In this document: positions 33,757-45,735 of the stretch, one piece after another
Position numbering within the stretch: the stretch's first letter is position 1
How the letters are laid out: every line of letters begins with the position of its first letter
DNA from: Singulisphaera sp. GP187
Lineage (GTDB): Bacteria > Planctomycetota > Phycisphaerae > Phycisphaerales > SM1A02
Assembly: GCA_945888705.1 (NCBI GenBank)
Contig: CAMDAQ010000004.1
Location: forward strand, 1-45,735
Length of the DNA stretch: 45,735 nucleotides
Direction of reading: 5' to 3'
Notes under the pieces: generated by a model
Told to the model about the DNA's origin: nothing
Databases searched by the model: none
What the model saw: only the letters and a program-made list of their open reading frames with translations
Program-made: the position numbers and the translations under genes

Positions 33757-35343
33757 TCAACGCAATGGCAACGTGATCGTGACCTCAAGATCGATCGGAA
33801 ACACGCGTTCCTGGCCGTTCACGATGGCGTCTTCGGGCGTGATGAGCGATCCATCGACGCGGAACTCGGGTTCATATGGGCCGCCGGCGGGTCCCGTCAC
33901 GACCACAGCGAAGCGAACCTTGAGCACGTGCTCGCCATCCTTCAGCGACTCGACCGGTGCCGTGATCGTGAAGCGATCGGGCTCCGCCAGCCGTCGCTTG
34001 AGCTGGGCCTGGACGTCGGCGGACTGTCCGGGCATCATGGCGAGCGTCGCCGCACGCTGGTCTGCATTCACATCGTCATCCGTGAGCGCGCGTGTATCCC
34101 CGAGCTCCATCGAGACGCCATCGAGCGCTGCCTCGAGCAGCACCACACGTGGCTCGACCCCTGCACTGCCAGGCACCGTGAACAGGTTCTCGCCGACCGT
34201 CGGCAGAAGATCGACCCTGAGGGCACCATCCTCAACGCGAGGTTCAGCGCGCACCATGACCCCCGCCAACGCCATGCGCTTGGCCCATGACTCATCGAGC
34301 ACGCCGCTCGCCAACGCGCCCGCCAGCAGACCGTTCGCGAAGACGCGCCGCTGGCCCGATCGCTCGATGGCTTCCAGCAAGAGTTCCGCGGCCTGCCGCG
34401 TCTCGCTCGGCGTGAGCTGCTGCTGCGAGAGCTCGTAGAACAGGAGCGGCGATGGCCCCGTGACGCGCGCCATCTGCAGCGAGAGCCACGGCGGCAAGGT
34501 CATCATCATGGTCGCGAACGGCACGGCGGCCCAGACCACGACCACCGCCAGCACGCCAACGATCCACGTCACGCGTCGCTGACCACGCTGCACGCTCGTG
34601 ACTGCGCCGGATCCGGCGAGGTCAGCGTTGCATTCCGGGCATCGGGCCGGAGGAAGATCGGCGAGCTCCTGCGTGCACGCGGCGCAGCGCGCGCGTCCGC
34701 GCTGGCCGGTGAGGGTCGGCATCATCACCACCCAGCAGGGCGCAGCGAGCAGCATCAGCATGACGAAGCCCGGCAGGTACACCCCGGTCAGGAACCGCAC
34801 GGCCAGCAGCACGGGCAGCACCAAGCCGAACGAACAACACGCGGCCACGAGCAATCGGCGGCGCATCGGTACGGCAGGATCGATGAGGCTGAACGTCACA
34901 CGCCAGACCGGATCGAGCCAGCGCATCCAGCGCCGATGCGCGGAGAGCTGCCGCCCGAGCGACATGGCCTCGACCACCTGCTGCGTCGCCACGGCTTCCC
35001 AGTACCGGATGAGCAACGGTTGCTGCCCAGCATGCACCCCATGCGTGCATGGATGCTCCCGTACCGAAGCCAGGCACGCCGGACACACGCAGCCCTCGTC
35101 ATCCCAGATGCGCTCCAACGCGCGCGAGCGTCGCCGGTTCTGCCGCAGCGCCGGAACCAGCGACACGAACACGCAGAGGTAGGCGACCCCGCCCATCCAT
35201 CGCAGCGGTGAACTCCCCAAGGCGAACAGGACACCGCCCGCGAGCACGCTCATGACCAAGCCGAGCAGCATGCCGCCGAACTGCTTGACCAGCGTGATCC
35301 GCTGGCCCATCCATTCAGCGCGGGTGATCGTCCAGGCCACCAT
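33757..35343 (-). CDS. Membrane protein with two zinc-ribbon motifs, unknown function
   Basis: A 528-residue protein. Two helices come near residues 25-65 (GGMLLGLVMSVLAGGVLF, GGVAYLCVFVSLVPAL). A cysteine motif follows (CVCPACLASVREHPCTHG), then two more helices (VAACCSFGLVLPVLLAV, VYLPGFVMLMLLAAPCWVVMM), a clear zinc ribbon CAACTQELADLPPARCPEC, a further helix (VTWIVGVLAVVVVWAAVPF) and a 260-residue outer domain with beta character. I recognise no named family; planctomycetes carry many such ribbon-membrane proteins. TACAGT six bases before ATG 35343 fixes the start, discarding ATG 35370. It lies 34 bp after the di-haem oxidoreductase gene on the same strand. Confidence 0.82.
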   Translation of the reverse strand: MVAWTITRAEWMGQRITLVKQFGGMLLGLVMSVLAGGVLFALGSSPLRWMGGVAYLCVFVSLVPALRQNRRRSRALERIWDDEGCVCPACLASVREHPCTHGVHAGQQPLLIRYWEAVATQQVVEAMSLGRQLSAHRRWMRWLDPVWRVTFSLIDPAVPMRRRLLVAACCSFGLVLPVLLAVRFLTGVYLPGFVMLMLLAAPCWVVMMPTLTGQRGRARCAACTQELADLPPARCPECNADLAGSGAVTSVQRGQRRVTWIVGVLAVVVVWAAVPFATMMMTLPPWLSLQMARVTGPSPLLFYELSQQQLTPSETRQAAELLLEAIERSGQRRVFANGLLAGALASGVLDESWAKRMALAGVMVRAEPRVEDGALRVDLLPTVGENLFTVPGSAGVEPRVVLLEAALDGVSMELGDTRALTDDDVNADQRAATLAMMPGQSADVQAQLKRRLAEPDRFTITAPVESLKDGEHVLKVRFAVVVTGPAGGPYEPEFRVDGSLITPEDAIVNGQERVFPIDLEVTITLPLR

Positions 35344-35349
35344 GCGCGG

Positions 35350-35355
35350 ACTGTA
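35350..35355 (-). promoter_or_regulatory. Leaderless -10 box of the zinc-ribbon membrane gene
   Basis: TACAGT, CCGCGC, then ATG at 35343 on the minus strand. It gives this gene a promoter separate from the imelysin operon upstream. Confidence 0.5.
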
Positions 35356-35377
35356 CGCCGCGGCACGCACCCTTCGT

Positions 35378-36760
35378 TCAGAGCGAGCGCAGGAACGCGA
35401 TCAGGTCATCGCGCTCCGCATTGCCGAGCCGCTCGAAGCCGGCACGGCTCCGCTCCGCCTCTCCGCCGTGCCAACGGATTGCTTCCTCGATCGAGCGCGC
35501 GCGGCCGTCATGCAAGAGCCGCGTGTGCCCGTTGACCGTCTCGATCAGACCGATGCCCCAGAGCGGCGGCGTGCGCCACTCGGAACCGCTGGCCGCGCCG
35601 TCGGGGCGACCGTCGGCGAGCCCTGGGCCAAGATCATGCAGCAGCAGATCGGTGTAGGCGGCGAACTCGACATCCCGGTACTGGCTGATCAGGGAGTGGA
35701 GGCCCGTTCGCATCGATGGCGTGTGGCACGAGGCGCAACCAATCGCCGCAAAGGTCGCAGCACCACGCTGCACGCTCGGACCGTCGGCGTTGCGTCGCGC
35801 GGGCACCGCCAGCACGCGGCAATAGTGGGCCAGACGCTGCACCTTCAGGTCATCGACTTCCGGATCGCCTCCGCTCGGTGCAAAGATCGTTGCGCGCTGT
35901 GCTGCAGTGAGTGACTCATGCCGATGCATCGACGTGGTCAACCCCATGTCGCCGTGGAGCGCCGCAGCGACCTGTGCGTCCAGTGTGGGCTGGGTCGCCT
36001 TCCATCCGAAGCGACCGACGCAGCGAGTGCCGCCAACATCGACCTCGTGTACCCGACCCGAGATCCCGTCACCATCGCGATCATCTGGATCCGCTGCGGC
36101 ACGAATCGTTGCGTCATCGACGGCTTCCAGCAGGCCAAGGCCGATCAACTGCGGCCCCATGCGCACCGACGGCACGGCATCATCGATCGGTTCACCGGCT
36201 GCGTTGCGCGCCTCCACACGCCACTGCACGAGCGGAGCCGCGCCACCCCGTTCGACCTCGACGGGCACCAGAAGAACGCTGCCCTCGGGCTCCACGCCGG
36301 GAATGGCTTGGTCCTGCAGCTGTGCACCGAGCAACGGATGCGGCCCCGACGGGTCGCTCGACGCACCAACGAACACCACCATGCCGATGCCGCGCTCGTC
36401 GTCGTGGAGCGGCGGCCTGCCGCGTCCGTCCTCCATATGGCACGCACTGCACGAGTTCGCAGCGAAGAGCGGCCCAAGTCCATCACGGCCCTCGGCGCTC
36501 GAGGGTGCCGGGACCCAGTTGTCACGGAAGAGCGCGTTGCCCACGCTGAAGGCGCGTCGCTCCTCGCGTGAGAGACCTGGGATCGAAAGACTGAACGCGC
36601 CGGGGCCGTCGGCCTGGACCGATGGTGCCGGGCGCGGGGGCGCCGCTGCAGCCTGGTTCGGGGCGCGCTGCGTGAGCCGGCCGAATTCCTCACGCGCCTT
36701 GGCGACGAGCACCACCGCCAACACCGCGCATGCGCCAAGCCCGATCGGTCGCAAGCTCAT
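35378..36760 (-). CDS. Di-haem oxidoreductase family c-type cytochrome (DHOR)
   Basis: A 460-residue periplasmic protein. An N-terminal helix (MSLRPIGLGACAVLAVVLVAKA) acts as signal or anchor. Two haem c sites are present, NSCSACHMEDGRG near residue 105 and GCASCHTPSMRTG near residue 340. Family marks are RDNWVPAPSSAEGRDGLGPLFAANSC, DGDGISGRV, GRFGWKATQPTL and WRTPPLWGIGL, ending in the helical RAGFERLGNAERDDLIAFLRSL. DHOR (DUF1111, formerly thiol oxidoreductase) genes pair with imelysin genes in iron-responsive operons; they are thought to change iron redox state outside the inner membrane. The start overlaps the imelysin stop by 4 bp (ATGA). Confidence 0.93.
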   Translation of the reverse strand: MSLRPIGLGACAVLAVVLVAKAREEFGRLTQRAPNQAAAAPPRPAPSVQADGPGAFSLSIPGLSREERRAFSVGNALFRDNWVPAPSSAEGRDGLGPLFAANSCSACHMEDGRGRPPLHDDERGIGMVVFVGASSDPSGPHPLLGAQLQDQAIPGVEPEGSVLLVPVEVERGGAAPLVQWRVEARNAAGEPIDDAVPSVRMGPQLIGLGLLEAVDDATIRAAADPDDRDGDGISGRVHEVDVGGTRCVGRFGWKATQPTLDAQVAAALHGDMGLTTSMHRHESLTAAQRATIFAPSGGDPEVDDLKVQRLAHYCRVLAVPARRNADGPSVQRGAATFAAIGCASCHTPSMRTGLHSLISQYRDVEFAAYTDLLLHDLGPGLADGRPDGAASGSEWRTPPLWGIGLIETVNGHTRLLHDGRARSIEEAIRWHGGEAERSRAGFERLGNAERDDLIAFLRSL

Positions 36761-37932
36761 CCCTGCGGTTCCGTGGGCAGCGTGTACCCCAGTGCACGGG
36801 CAGCCGCGGTGGTCGCCTCCGACAGCGACTCAAGCGACTCCATGATCGCGACCAAGCGACCGCGCTCCGGGCTCGACTCGCTCGACTGGATGGCGGCATC
36901 GAACGGATTCGGCATCGCTTGCATGCAGGTCTCTGCGTGGGCCAGCGCACGCACGAGTGCTTGCGCGGCGGCCCCATCGCGTTCCCGCACGACCGCGATG
37001 ACGCCATCATCGTTTGCTCCGCGCAGCACCAGGGCGATGCCCTCAAGGCCCGCCTTGAAGTCACGATCGGTCGTGTCGCTGAAGCAGCTGTGCTCCTGCT
37101 CCTGATCGCGCGACTCGAGCGCCGCAGCAAGCCGCTCGCCCGACATCTCGAAGCCGCTCAGCAGCGCCACGCCGCAGAGCACCGAGCGCAACGCAGCCTG
37201 GCGATCCGCGACGAATCGGCTTCGGTACGAACCGGGTCGGTCGGCCCACGCCGACTCGAGCTTGGCGAGGTCATCGCACAGAAGATCGGTCACTTCCAGC
37301 AGGAACTCGCGGCGGCGATCGGCATGATCGGCGGCGCCGTCCACGAAGTCGCGGAACGATCGGTCCCCCGGTCCGCGCGGCGAGCGGTCCTGGCCCCACA
37401 GCAGGAACTCGATCGCGTGCCAGCCCGTGCACACGTTGGTCTCGCCCCCGCGCTGGTTGTGCACACGCAGGATCGCCTTGCCCACCGACGGGTACTTCGA
37501 TGGATTCGCGATGATCCCCGGTGCGGCCGCACCATCGATCGCATCGATGTAGGACTCATCGACAGGCCAGGCGTTGACGAAGGTCTCCACGCCGCCGCGG
37601 GTCGAGTCGATCGGCCCGTTGCCGAAGCGGAACGCCTCAGTCCGACCGTAGAGCTCCCGTGCCGCGATCCACGTCGTGCGAGCGCGCTCGAGGCCCTCCT
37701 GCGAAGGCGCGGCGCAGAACGCCTCGATCGCCGCGCGCATCCGACGCGCCGCTTCAGCAGTTGCGGAGTACGCGCGCTCGACCGTGGCGGCGTACGCAGT
37801 CACGCAGCGCTCGACGGCCGCCAAACCTCCGCCCGCACCGGCGTCCACCACTGCCTGCGGTTCGCCCGAGTGCGCCGCACACGGCAACATCGGTGCCATC
37901 CACATCGCACCCAGCAGGAACCAGAGACGCAT
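36757..37932 (-). CDS. Imelysin family protein (IrpA-like), iron-linked
   Basis: A 391-residue exported protein with signal peptide MRLWFLLGAMWMAPMLPCAAHS. The imelysin/M75 fold is helical; its key GxHxxE motif is GWHAIEFLLWGQD near residue 170. Other family marks are YGRTEAFRFGNGPIDSTRGGVETFVNAWPVDESYIDAI and VGKAILRVHNQRGGETNVCTGW. Imelysins are no longer thought to be peptidases; they belong to periplasmic iron-uptake systems. TACTGT six bases before ATG 37932 suggests leaderless transcription. I could not see a Fur box in the 113-bp gap upstream. It is first in a two-gene operon with the di-haem oxidoreductase. Confidence 0.93.
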   Translation of the reverse strand: MRLWFLLGAMWMAPMLPCAAHSGEPQAVVDAGAGGGLAAVERCVTAYAATVERAYSATAEAARRMRAAIEAFCAAPSQEGLERARTTWIAARELYGRTEAFRFGNGPIDSTRGGVETFVNAWPVDESYIDAIDGAAAPGIIANPSKYPSVGKAILRVHNQRGGETNVCTGWHAIEFLLWGQDRSPRGPGDRSFRDFVDGAADHADRRREFLLEVTDLLCDDLAKLESAWADRPGSYRSRFVADRQAALRSVLCGVALLSGFEMSGERLAAALESRDQEQEHSCFSDTTDRDFKAGLEGIALVLRGANDDGVIAVVRERDGAAAQALVRALAHAETCMQAMPNPFDAAIQSSESSPERGRLVAIMESLESLSEATTAAARALGYTLPTEPQG

Positions 37933-38045: not shown

Positions 38046-39236
38046 ATGCTTCGCCCAATGGCCATCCTCGCACCCACCCTCGGCGCGCTCGTCGCCTTTC
38101 AGGCACCACTCGCAGCGCAGGCGCCACCGGCCGCCGCGCCACAGCGTCCGCAAGCCCTGCCTGGCGCCGAGAGCTTCGCCACGGCCAACGCCGAGCTGCG
38201 CGCCCTGAATGCGGCCGTGCGCCCGTCGGTCGTGACGGTGACCGCCTACGAACCGGTGCCCGAGGGCATTGCCCACGAAGGCCGCTGGGCGATCGCGGAT
38301 GAATCGCCGTATCCCGGCTTTGCGCGCATGACCGTGTCCAGCGGCTTCGTGGCCTCGGGCGACGGCACCGTGCTCTGCTGCTACACGCCGCTCACGTTTC
38401 CCAATGGAAGCCTGGTCGAGCGCGTCGATGTCGAAGCGGCGGATGGCTCGCGATTCGATGCCGAGCTTCTTGCCGCCGAACCCACGATCAATCTCGCGGT
38501 GCTGCGACTCAAGCCCATTGCCGACGGCAGCTTCGGCAGCCTCAGTCCCATCGTGCAGGGCTCCGTCGATGAACTCGAGATCGGCGATGCTGTGTTCGCC
38601 GTCGCGGATCCGTTCGGCTCGTCACGCACGTTCGCGCCTGGCGTGGTCATGGCTCTTCCTACGGCTGCGTGCTACCAAGCCGACCTCACCGGGAGCTTCA
38701 TCCATGGCAGCATGGCGATCGCGCCAGGCTCGGTGGGCGGCATCCTCGTGAATGGTTCGGGCCAGACCATGGGCATGCTCGTTCCTGCACCCAGTGCCGA
38801 CCCCACGGCGCGGCTCGAGCCGCAGCCGCACGTGACGCTGGCGATGCAGGTCCAGACGGCGCTCGGCGTTGCGGAAGCCCTGAAAACCAAGCGTTCCAAG
38901 GATTCCCCTTGGGTCGGCTTTTCCGTGATGAGCGCGCAGGAACTCCGCCGCAAGCTCAACGACCAGGCAGCCCTCGATGCACTCAGCAAGCCCGGCAACG
39001 GGCTTTACATCGATGACGTGTACGACCCGAGCCCCGCGGCGGCGGCTGGGATCAAGGTCGGCGATTGGATCATGTCGATGAACACCACGACCATCCACGG
39101 CGTGGTCGACTTCCAGCAGTCGCTCTACTACTTCGCCGGCACGCAGGTGCCCGCACGCATCTTCCGCGACGGCAAGGAGATGAACGTCACGCTCCGCATC
39201 GAGAAGCGACCGGCCGAGGCGAACCGCGTCCGTTGA
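38046..39236 (+). CDS. HtrA/DegP-like PDZ protein with a degenerate catalytic triad
   Basis: A 396-residue exported protein. Signal peptide MLRPMAILAPTLGALVAFQAPLAAQA. Residues about 50-270 follow the DegP chymotrypsin fold: ALNAAVRPSVVTVTA, SSGFVASGDGTVLCCYTPL, INLAVLRLKPI, VFAVADPFGSSRTFAPGVV, and SMAIAPGSVGGILVNGSGQTMGM. Aligned with DegP, the histidine of TNNHV is Thr, the aspartate of TDIAL is Asn, and the serine of GNSGG is Val (GSVGG). All three catalytic residues are thus missing. A PDZ domain follows (about 290-390, GLYIDDVYDPSPAAAAGIKVGDWIMSM). It is best read as a non-proteolytic scaffold or chaperone. It diverges from the imelysin operon and I see no clear start signal. Confidence 0.85.
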   Translation: MLRPMAILAPTLGALVAFQAPLAAQAPPAAAPQRPQALPGAESFATANAELRALNAAVRPSVVTVTAYEPVPEGIAHEGRWAIADESPYPGFARMTVSSGFVASGDGTVLCCYTPLTFPNGSLVERVDVEAADGSRFDAELLAAEPTINLAVLRLKPIADGSFGSLSPIVQGSVDELEIGDAVFAVADPFGSSRTFAPGVVMALPTAACYQADLTGSFIHGSMAIAPGSVGGILVNGSGQTMGMLVPAPSADPTARLEPQPHVTLAMQVQTALGVAEALKTKRSKDSPWVGFSVMSAQELRRKLNDQAALDALSKPGNGLYIDDVYDPSPAAAAGIKVGDWIMSMNTTTIHGVVDFQQSLYYFAGTQVPARIFRDGKEMNVTLRIEKRPAEANRVR

Positions 39237-43559: not shown

Positions 43560-43655
43560 TGGGGAATCCTCTGTTCGGACTGGGAAAGGCACGCGCGGCC
43601 CCCACGTCGGGCGGGCGGCTCCTCGCCCAAAGTGGCGAGTTCGACCGCTTCGGGC

Positions 43656-43683
43656 TTGGCAAGGTCCATTATGGGGCTAGATT
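43656..43683 (+). promoter_or_regulatory. Sigma-70-type promoter of the secreted protease gene
   Basis: TTGGCA (43656-43661) and TAGATT (43678-43683) are separated by 16 bases, upstream of ATG 43760. This is the best -35/-10 pair I found. A GGAG about ten bases before the start is a plausible ribosome-binding site. Confidence 0.5.
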
Positions 43684-43759
43684 CCGTCGAGCGTCCGGCC
43701 GGTCACCCGTCCGGGCTGTCTTGTCACCGCCTGAAGACCACCCACGGAGACTGAACGCC

Positions 43760-45735
43760 ATGCCACGACTCACCGTTCCGGCTGCTCTGACCCTGGTCGC
43801 CTGCGTGCTCGGCGCTCCGTCCGCACTCGCCGCCGATGACGGTGTCGACGGCCATCCGGCCATCGGTGCGCAGCAGCCTGCACAGGAGACGGCCGCGAGC
43901 CTGAGCGAAGTCTTCGGCATGGAGTTCGTGCCGGTGCCGCTGCACGTGCTGCCCCCGCAGGACAACGAATTCTTCATGACCGAGGATGTGATCCTTGGCA
44001 ATGGCACCGGACAGAACCCCTACCGCTTCGCCGTGCCCACCCCAGCGGCCCTCGAACTCGGCAGCGGCGAATGGCTCGATGTCGAAGGGGGCCGCCTGTG
44101 GCGGACCCGCATCGCGTCGCCGAACGCGACGACGGCGCGCCTTCACGTGAAGGGCATCGACCTCCCTGCCGGCCAGCAACTGCGCATGTCGGCACCAGGC
44201 TGGGCCGACTCGGTCATCGGGCCGATCGAAGGCGTTGGAGAGTTCGGCAACGGCGAGGCCTGGAGCCTGTCGCTGCCCACCAACGAAGTGCTTCTCGAGT
44301 GGTTCGTGCCCACCGGCTCGCCCGCGAAGGGCCTGCCGTTCCTTGAAGCCGACTACTACCACGGCTACCGCCAGATCTGGAAGCTCGAGGAAGAAGGCAG
44401 CGACGGCGGTCTCGCGGTCGGCACCTGCCACCTCGACCCGATCTGCTTCCCGACGTGGGTGGGCGAGTCCAACGGCACGGTGCGACTGATCTTCACCGGG
44501 TCGCTCTGCTCGGGCCAGCTCACGGCCACCACCGCCGTGGACGAGACCCCCTACGTCATGACCGCGAACCACTGCATCTCGACGCAGTCGATCGCCAACA
44601 GCTGCCAGTTCAACTTCTTCTACCGTCGCAACACGTGCGCCGCATCGGCAACCGCCTCGGCCGGCAGCAACATCACGGGTGGCGACCTGGTCGTCACGCA
44701 GGCTGCCAGCGACTGCACGCTGCTCATGATCCGCCCCACGCTGCCTGCCAACACCTATTGGGTCGGCTGGACCAACGCCAACGTCCCGACCAACACGGCC
44801 TCGACGTGCGTGCACCATCCTGATGGCAGCTACCAGCGCATCTCGTTCGGCACCAAGAACGCCGCGTCGTTCAACTGCGGCAGCCCGCAGACGAACTGGT
44901 CGAGCCTGTCGTGGAATCCTGCCACCCAGTACGGCGTGACCTCGACCGGCGTCACCGAGGGCGGCTCGTCCGGCAGCGCCATCTACCGCAACAGCGATCG
45001 ACGCATGTACGGCGTGCTGACCTGCGGCGCGAGCTTCTGCACCAACACGGCCGCGGATGACGGCTACGGCCGGCTTGACGTGGCGATCAGCAGCGGCGGC
45101 TTCGCCACGCCGCTGGCTGCCGGCACCGATGACACGCAGGAACCCAACGATTCCTGCGCCGCGCCGCGCGTCCTCGCCAACGGCACGTACAGCGGCCTCG
45201 TCGTCAAGCGACTCGATGAGGACTGGTACCAGCTGTCGAGCGCGCCGGGCACGGTCGTTTCCATCGGCGCGACCTACGTCCACGCCAATGGTGACGTCGA
45301 TCTGGAACTCTTCTCGTCCTGCGGCGGCACGGCGCTCGCCAGCGACGTGGCCAACGCGAACAACGCGGCGATCAACTACACGAACACGAGCGGCAGCAAC
45401 ACGCTGTTCCTGCGCGTGTTCCTCGGCAGCGACACCCGCAACGACTACTCGCTGACGGTCACGACGTCCGCTCCGCCCACCCCGGCCAACGACGAGTGCG
45501 CGGCGGCCATCGACATCACCGGATCGGTCGCCTTCTCGACCGTCGGCGCCACCGACAGCACGACGGGCACGATCCCGGCCAGCTGCAACGACGGCGCGGG
45601 CACGAGCATGCAGCGCGACATCTGGTACCGCATCTTCGCGCAGTGCACGGGCACGGCGACGGTGTCGACCTGCGGTGCATCGTTCGACACGCGCGTGGCG
45701 GTCTACCAGGGCTTCACCTGCCCGACCGCGTCGTC
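43760..45735 (+). CDS. Secreted trypsin-like (lysyl endopeptidase-like) protease, 3' end cut
   Basis: The frame is open from ATG 43760 to the window edge, 658 residues so far. Signal peptide MPRLTVPAALTLVACVLGAPSALA, then a propeptide-like region with GRLWRTRIASPNATTARLHV. The protease domain starts near residue 210 and has a complete triad: His271 (MTANHCIS), Asp318 (SDCTLLMI) and Ser404 (GGSSGSAIY). Many cysteines suggest disulfides. This layout matches Lysobacter/Achromobacter lysyl endopeptidase. After about residue 445 comes a PPC-like beta domain (DDTQEPNDSCAAPRVLANGTY ... DEDWYQLSSAPG ... NDYSLTV), then a second beta repeat (PANDECAAAIDITG ... IWYRIFAQCTGTATVSTCG). Extracellular protein digestion is likely. 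A Phycisphaerae-type tail may lie beyond the edge. Confidence 0.88.
   Translation, partial: MPRLTVPAALTLVACVLGAPSALAADDGVDGHPAIGAQQPAQETAASLSEVFGMEFVPVPLHVLPPQDNEFFMTEDVILGNGTGQNPYRFAVPTPAALELGSGEWLDVEGGRLWRTRIASPNATTARLHVKGIDLPAGQQLRMSAPGWADSVIGPIEGVGEFGNGEAWSLSLPTNEVLLEWFVPTGSPAKGLPFLEADYYHGYRQIWKLEEEGSDGGLAVGTCHLDPICFPTWVGESNGTVRLIFTGSLCSGQLTATTAVDETPYVMTANHCISTQSIANSCQFNFFYRRNTCAASATASAGSNITGGDLVVTQAASDCTLLMIRPTLPANTYWVGWTNANVPTNTASTCVHHPDGSYQRISFGTKNAASFNCGSPQTNWSSLSWNPATQYGVTSTGVTEGGSSGSAIYRNSDRRMYGVLTCGASFCTNTAADDGYGRLDVAISSGGFATPLAAGTDDTQEPNDSCAAPRVLANGTYSGLVVKRLDEDWYQLSSAPGTVVSIGATYVHANGDVDLELFSSCGGTALASDVANANNAAINYTNTSGSNTLFLRVFLGSDTRNDYSLTVTTSAPPTPANDECAAAIDITGSVAFSTVGATDSTTGTIPASCNDGAGTSMQRDIWYRIFAQCTGTATVSTCGASFDTRVAVYQGFTCPTAS

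Follow-up and report, generated by a model that had tools for sequence, protein, structure and literature searches.

What kind of protein is made by a gene that keeps the body of an HtrA protease and seems to have given up its catalytic residues? Such a gene lies at positions 38046-39236 of the stretch of DNA from Singulisphaera sp. GP187 analysed here (45,735 nucleotides, called the window below). A preliminary description, made from the letters alone, had read it as a selected pseudo-protease, perhaps a periplasmic chaperone or a decoy subunit for an active HtrA. The frame is exactly this ORF, without internal stops, and its parts are as follows.

38046..39236 (+): pseudo-HtrA gene, 396 aa (ORF, Pfam, fold), with a signal-peptide-like N-terminus, a dead trypsin-like domain and one PDZ domain
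38046..38123 (+): N-terminus resembling a signal peptide by eye, MLRPMAILAPTLGALVAFQAPLAAQA
38340..38777 (+): Trypsin_2 domain without catalytic triad, aa 99-244 (Pfam and alignment)
38385..38387 (+): T114 codon, aligned with the catalytic His
38490..38492 (+): N149 codon, aligned with the catalytic Asp
38733..38735 (+): V230 codon, aligned with the catalytic Ser
38994..39194 (+): PDZ_2 match, aa 317-383 (Pfam), with the W-x-G-F loop at aa 289-292 kept in the clade

By fold and by descent the protein belongs to the HtrA (S1C) family, with a trypsin-like domain followed by a PDZ domain. Pfam places both matches over their cut-offs (Trypsin_2, 57.4 bits against 27.6; PDZ_2, 35 bits), the best NCBIfam row, the Do family TIGR02037, reaches no more than 114 bits against a cut-off of 416, and among solved sequences DegP and DegQ are the closest (best E 6.4e-22). 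An AlphaFold2 model (pLDDT 79.0, pTM 0.77, from an 11-row alignment) falls into the HtrA fold when overlaid on DegQ (3pv2_A, Z 27.9, rmsd 4.8, 287 aligned residues), and the top Foldseek rows are DegQ, DegP and DegS, with E down to 5.5e-25. The intact frame and the retained DegP-type fold and PDZ domain of the preliminary description are thus borne out. The N-terminus would send the protein to the periplasm, and the W-x-G-F loop kept before the PDZ match makes peptide binding by this domain plausible. The triad had also been read correctly: aligned with 32 HtrA paralogues picked by similarity, all His-Asp-Ser and none with a triad residue lost, the protein has T114, N149 and V230 in the triad columns, and neither the His-Asp-Ser triad nor the GNSGG loop of an active HtrA (S1C protease) is found there.

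We then looked at relatives of the gene. When 400 genomes of the order were searched with a profile built from six orthologues (A1), members stood apart, at 293 bits or more, from ordinary HtrAs, at 149 bits or less; the one exception was a half-gene split by a run of N (156 bits). Members were present in 25 of the 400 genomes, all within the family of the window, and a contig search of genomes gave 10 loci, 9 of them pseudo-HtrA members. A broader profile (A6), searched in 324 genomes of the phylum, added three members from outside the class (349-402 bits, ordinary HtrAs at 177 or less). The sample thus comprises 31 member loci in 30 planctomycete genomes (28 loci and the 3 from outside the class), the named genomes being metagenome bins. 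In two quick trees, of 28 member against 31 HtrA rows and of 31 against 32, with the short L002 left out, one branch with support 100 separates the members from the active HtrAs, and this branch amounts in all to about 1.6 changes per column. The pseudo-HtrA clade itself splits into 23 rows of the window's type (support 99, the main clade) and 8 deep rows (support 95).

The catalytic Ser is missing from all 31 members, with V, I, L, A, F or Y in its place. At the Asp position 26 of 31 members have another residue (25 Asn, 1 Gln), L043, L052, L092, L096 and L097 keeping Asp, and His is replaced in 28 of the 30 members readable there, L122 and L124 keeping it. All three residues are lost in 23 of the 30 members readable at all three positions, a count that excludes L095, whose sequence is cut before the His. 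These counts indicate that the loss of Ser is clade-wide and that the His and Asp states are variable. The substitutions are therefore common to the homologues in kind, no member having Ser and Asp being mostly Asn, whereas the replacing residues themselves vary. Seven invariants of active HtrAs (T111, N112, S202, Q220, D222, N226 and N229) are also replaced in the main clade; six of these (226, 229, 220, 222, 202 and 111) are oxyanion-loop and activation positions that are fixed in the paralogues. Conversely, the main clade has some 60 positions with a residue fixed to 95% or more that active HtrAs rarely show, including C111, E145, T147, D188, P205, C209-Y210-Q211, S287-P288, Q357 and Y361. 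Like DegP, DegQ and DegS (HtrA, S1C peptidases), the protein thus has a trypsin-like and a PDZ domain, the same fold (Z up to 27.9) and an apparent export signal; unlike them it has no triad, has replaced oxyanion-loop and activation residues, and forms a separate clade. An annotation by domain only would give 'serine protease', a name that probably misdescribes every member of the pseudo-HtrA clade.

The pattern is supported as that of a conserved lineage under purifying selection and not of a decayed gene. Values of dN/dS (NG86) for the window gene against three congeners are 0.239, 0.116 and 0.089 (range within the genus 0.07-0.24), the comparison with G033, near saturation, having been excluded from the estimate. 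Frames are open in all members; L052 alone is split, by a run of N in the assembly, so the frameshift seen in L052 (G150) is only apparent, and a second pseudo-HtrA frame in L090 (L090_psb) was a shadow frame, removed before the counts. Chance or gene decay is ruled out by the triad counts, the low dN/dS and the conservation outside the triad, and with the intact frames and the support-100 clade these data uphold the preliminary view of a selected pseudo-protease. That the gene is a functionless relic, kept by linkage or hitch-hiking, is for the same reasons scarcely credible: the catalytic positions do drift, as would be expected of such a relic (six different residues stand in for Ser), but the low dN/dS, the clade-fixed positions and the open frames all speak against it.

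Two other trypsin-like proteins of this genome are worth recording. A protein encoded elsewhere (L003/L008, G000:C77:7781-8710) joins an intact trypsin-like domain (TAGHC, GGDSGG) to a degenerate Trypsin_2 with CMRMGGPL at the Ser loop, that is, a pseudo-protease domain in tandem with an active one. In the window, the frame at 43616-45733 (+), which runs off the end, encodes a second trypsin-like protein (Trypsin_2, 25.9 bits) that looks active, judging from its TANHC and GGSSGS motifs.

With whom, then, might a dead HtrA work? Its immediate neighbours in the window are the following.

36757..37932 (-): imelysin (Peptidase_M75, GWHAIE), divergent from the pseudo-HtrA gene; Pfam, 200.1 bits
35378..36760 (-): DHOR di-haem oxidoreductase with two CXXCH; Pfam, 267.2 bits
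39431..41134 (+): downstream gene c0, 567 aa, tentatively a PhoX-like propeller (Foldseek, poor model) with a GC-type dockerin tail

The imelysin carries the GxHxxE motif of M75 proteins as GWHAIE, and its closest PDB sequence is 7xrx, an insulin-cleaving metalloproteinase outer membrane protein (E 2.7e-43). The haem sites of the DHOR are CSACH and CASCH, the two CXXCH of a DHOR/DUF1111 protein, and its gene overlaps that of the imelysin by 4 nt. A frame of 537 aa (33757-35370, -) with no Pfam match at 0.001 follows the DHOR gene after 7 nt and probably shares its operon. Among the window neighbours that were compared with Pfam, no EfeU/Ftr1 permease is found.

This neighbourhood is persistent. 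DHOR and/or imelysin adjoin the pseudo-HtrA in 23 of 31 loci (20 of 28, and all 3 of those from outside the class, where the linkage extends to three families). In four of the unpaired loci (L041, L081, L088 and L095) the contig ends on the side of the pair, and in the four others (L043, L052, L096 and L097, from three genomes) no DHOR or strong imelysin occurs in the stretch examined; we call the latter marine-type, a working label, since only L052 (ALOHA) points to the sea. An intradiol-dioxygenase-like gene (PF00775) with a dockerin tail directly precedes the pseudo-HtrA in three of these (L043:8512-9273, L096:10164-10913, 72.5 bits, and L097:4501-5247) and was not seen in L052. The arrangement differs between the subclades: in the main clade the pseudo-HtrA is divergent from the pair, and in L050, L122, L123 and L124 it is convergent, the pseudo-HtrA being followed by DHOR and imelysin on the other strand. 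A linkage that is rearranged and yet persists argues for a shared function of the three proteins.

Co-occurrence points the same way. Among the matches listed for 124 genomes of the family, a strong imelysin (above 95 bits, or truncated at the end of a contig) is found in 20, and all 20 have the pseudo-HtrA, which is present in 25 of the 124; the remaining 99 have neither gene (Fisher p 9e-19, uncorrected for relatedness). The five genomes with a pseudo-HtrA and no strong imelysin are G007 and G281, with cut contigs, and G014, G150 and G316, of the marine type. Both states, module present and module absent, occur within six genera. Furthermore, in quick trees from which the near-identical rows L083, L084, L087 and L089 had been removed, one branch separates linked from unlinked imelysins of the same order (17 against 4 rows, support 100) and linked from unlinked DHORs (18 against 5 rows, support 98), and both trees echo the pseudo-HtrA split, with L050, L122, L123 and L124 apart from the window's family.

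The best Foldseek row of the downstream gene c0 is PhoX (3zwu, E 4.5e-7), from a poor model (pLDDT 49.5); neither Pfam nor the PDB sequences match it to PhoX, the Pfam match being to the tail only. A first neighbour cluster built on this gene was inflated by shared dockerin tails, its other entries being unrelated dockerin proteins; with the tails removed, the gene adjoining the pseudo-HtrA forms one family of 23. It is present in all 22 main-clade genomes of the 124-genome family set and also occurs alone (G226, G078, G115, G306 and partly G107). In several relatives the module also has PhoD-like and purple-acid-phosphatase-like proteins in its vicinity (L048:3649-5571, L094:3989-5848 and L094:1714-3723), so that phosphatases with a possible need for iron cluster with a putative iron module.

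In other bacteria, both imelysins and DUF1111 di-haem proteins have been linked to iron uptake, often under Fur control, and the way in which imelysins and their DUF1111/DHOR partners act in it is described as unclear (PMC3143127); an M75 protein is reported to bind Cu, Fe and Zn (PMC9174327). The window locus resembles the imelysin/DUF1111 and EfeUOB loci in having a GxHxxE imelysin and a di-haem DUF1111/DHOR in one putative operon, and differs in that the planctomycete module adds the pseudo-HtrA and usually the PhoX-like dockerin gene. Any link of the locus to iron would thus be inherited from the families of the neighbouring genes. On this basis we think it rather probable that the pseudo-HtrA is an exported, catalytically dead, dedicated non-proteolytic partner of an imelysin/DHOR iron-handling module in Planctomycetota, a model that rests on the fold, the clade-wide loss of Ser, purifying selection, linkage and co-occurrence, and the matching splits in three trees. 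Its PDZ groove and remodelled protease domain would hold or position the imelysin and/or the DHOR, as a scaffold; or it may bind metal or haem that these two pass on, by analogy with MamO. Candidate contacts were sought in the partners' ends. The imelysin tail LPTEPQG, which we take not to be a classic PDZ ligand, is kept in most linked members and missing in four unlinked ones, and is a lead only; the DHOR C-terminus FLxSL was rejected as a PDZ ligand, unlinked DHORs being similar and the motif therefore uninformative.

Some observations count against the partner model: the four marine-type loci without the pair, pairs without the pseudo-HtrA, and the lack of a Fur-like site. Thus, no HtrA-like gene occurs in the neighbouring stretch examined around the unlinked imelysin-DHOR pairs L103-L106, so that the pair can work without the pseudo-HtrA, and between the divergent genes no convincing Fur-like or shared palindromic site was found (best 8-11/19 matches). 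The two roles named in the preliminary description fare worse in the comparative evidence, which ties the gene to imelysin and DHOR and not to active HtrA. A regulatory or decoy subunit in mixed trimers with an active HtrA is favoured by the trimeric state of HtrAs and by the presence of an intact DegP-like gene (L001) in this genome. We nevertheless give this little credence, as an HtrA-type match is found in 60 of 61 relatives and the pseudo-HtrA in only 25 of the 124 family genomes listed, following imelysin/DHOR instead, and as the long branch sets it far from the active HtrAs. A general periplasmic holdase would fit the chaperone activity ascribed to the HtrA family beside proteolysis, but such a chaperone would not be expected to come and go with a single imelysin/DHOR pair, as it would have to in the six genera of mixed state, and we regard it as very improbable too.

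The remaining alternative makes the protein itself the binder, its dead protease domain taking up iron, copper or haem for the imelysin and the DHOR. MamO is an HtrA-fold pseudoprotease of magnetotactic bacteria that binds transition metal and is encoded in an iron gene cluster (PMC4794232), and the main clade has potential ligands at sites occupied by other residues in active HtrAs: C111 (22/22), C112 (19/22), M202 (23/23), C209 (23/23), H220 (22/23) and M223 (23/23). Against this, the MamO ligand beside the triad Asp corresponds to I148 here (I, L or V in the clade), no His occurs in the helix predicted to follow the protease domain, and the Cys/Met/His set, C209 excepted, is absent from the deep subclade, though this is partly linked to the same genes. 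We hold metal binding of this kind to be unlikely. A more ambitious proposal, in which the dead HtrA is a core subunit of a hitherto undescribed planctomycete iron/haem module, an independent, non-magnetosome case of an HtrA fold turned from proteolysis to a periplasmic iron and di-haem pathway, and the main-clade active site has been rebuilt with Cys, His and Met as a metal or haem site, is conceivable and looks doubtful to us.

The likeness to MamO is nonetheless instructive for the partner model. Both are pseudoproteases of the HtrA/trypsin fold with a degenerate triad, set in known or putative iron gene clusters, and both are among several independent catalytic losses in HtrA-type proteins (PMC4794232). 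They differ in that the pseudo-HtrA has no di-histidine site, with I148 before N149 and no His in the predicted helix 269-282 (the register being taken from residue numbers in PMC4794232, not from a structural overlay). It has a PDZ domain where MamO has a C-terminal transporter domain, its linked partners are imelysin and DHOR where that of MamO is MamE, and its Ser has given way to hydrophobic residues where MamO has Thr.

Pseudo-HtrAs as such are already known; one joined to imelysin and DHOR was not found described in the titles and abstract openings of the open-licence literature. If the model is true, the lineage would give a second setting, beside MamO, in which this fold serves an iron pathway without catalysis. 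That would bear on why the HtrA scaffold has been recruited repeatedly, and a pseudo-HtrA whose presence and absence follow those of imelysin and DHOR would be a new, testable component of iron uptake.
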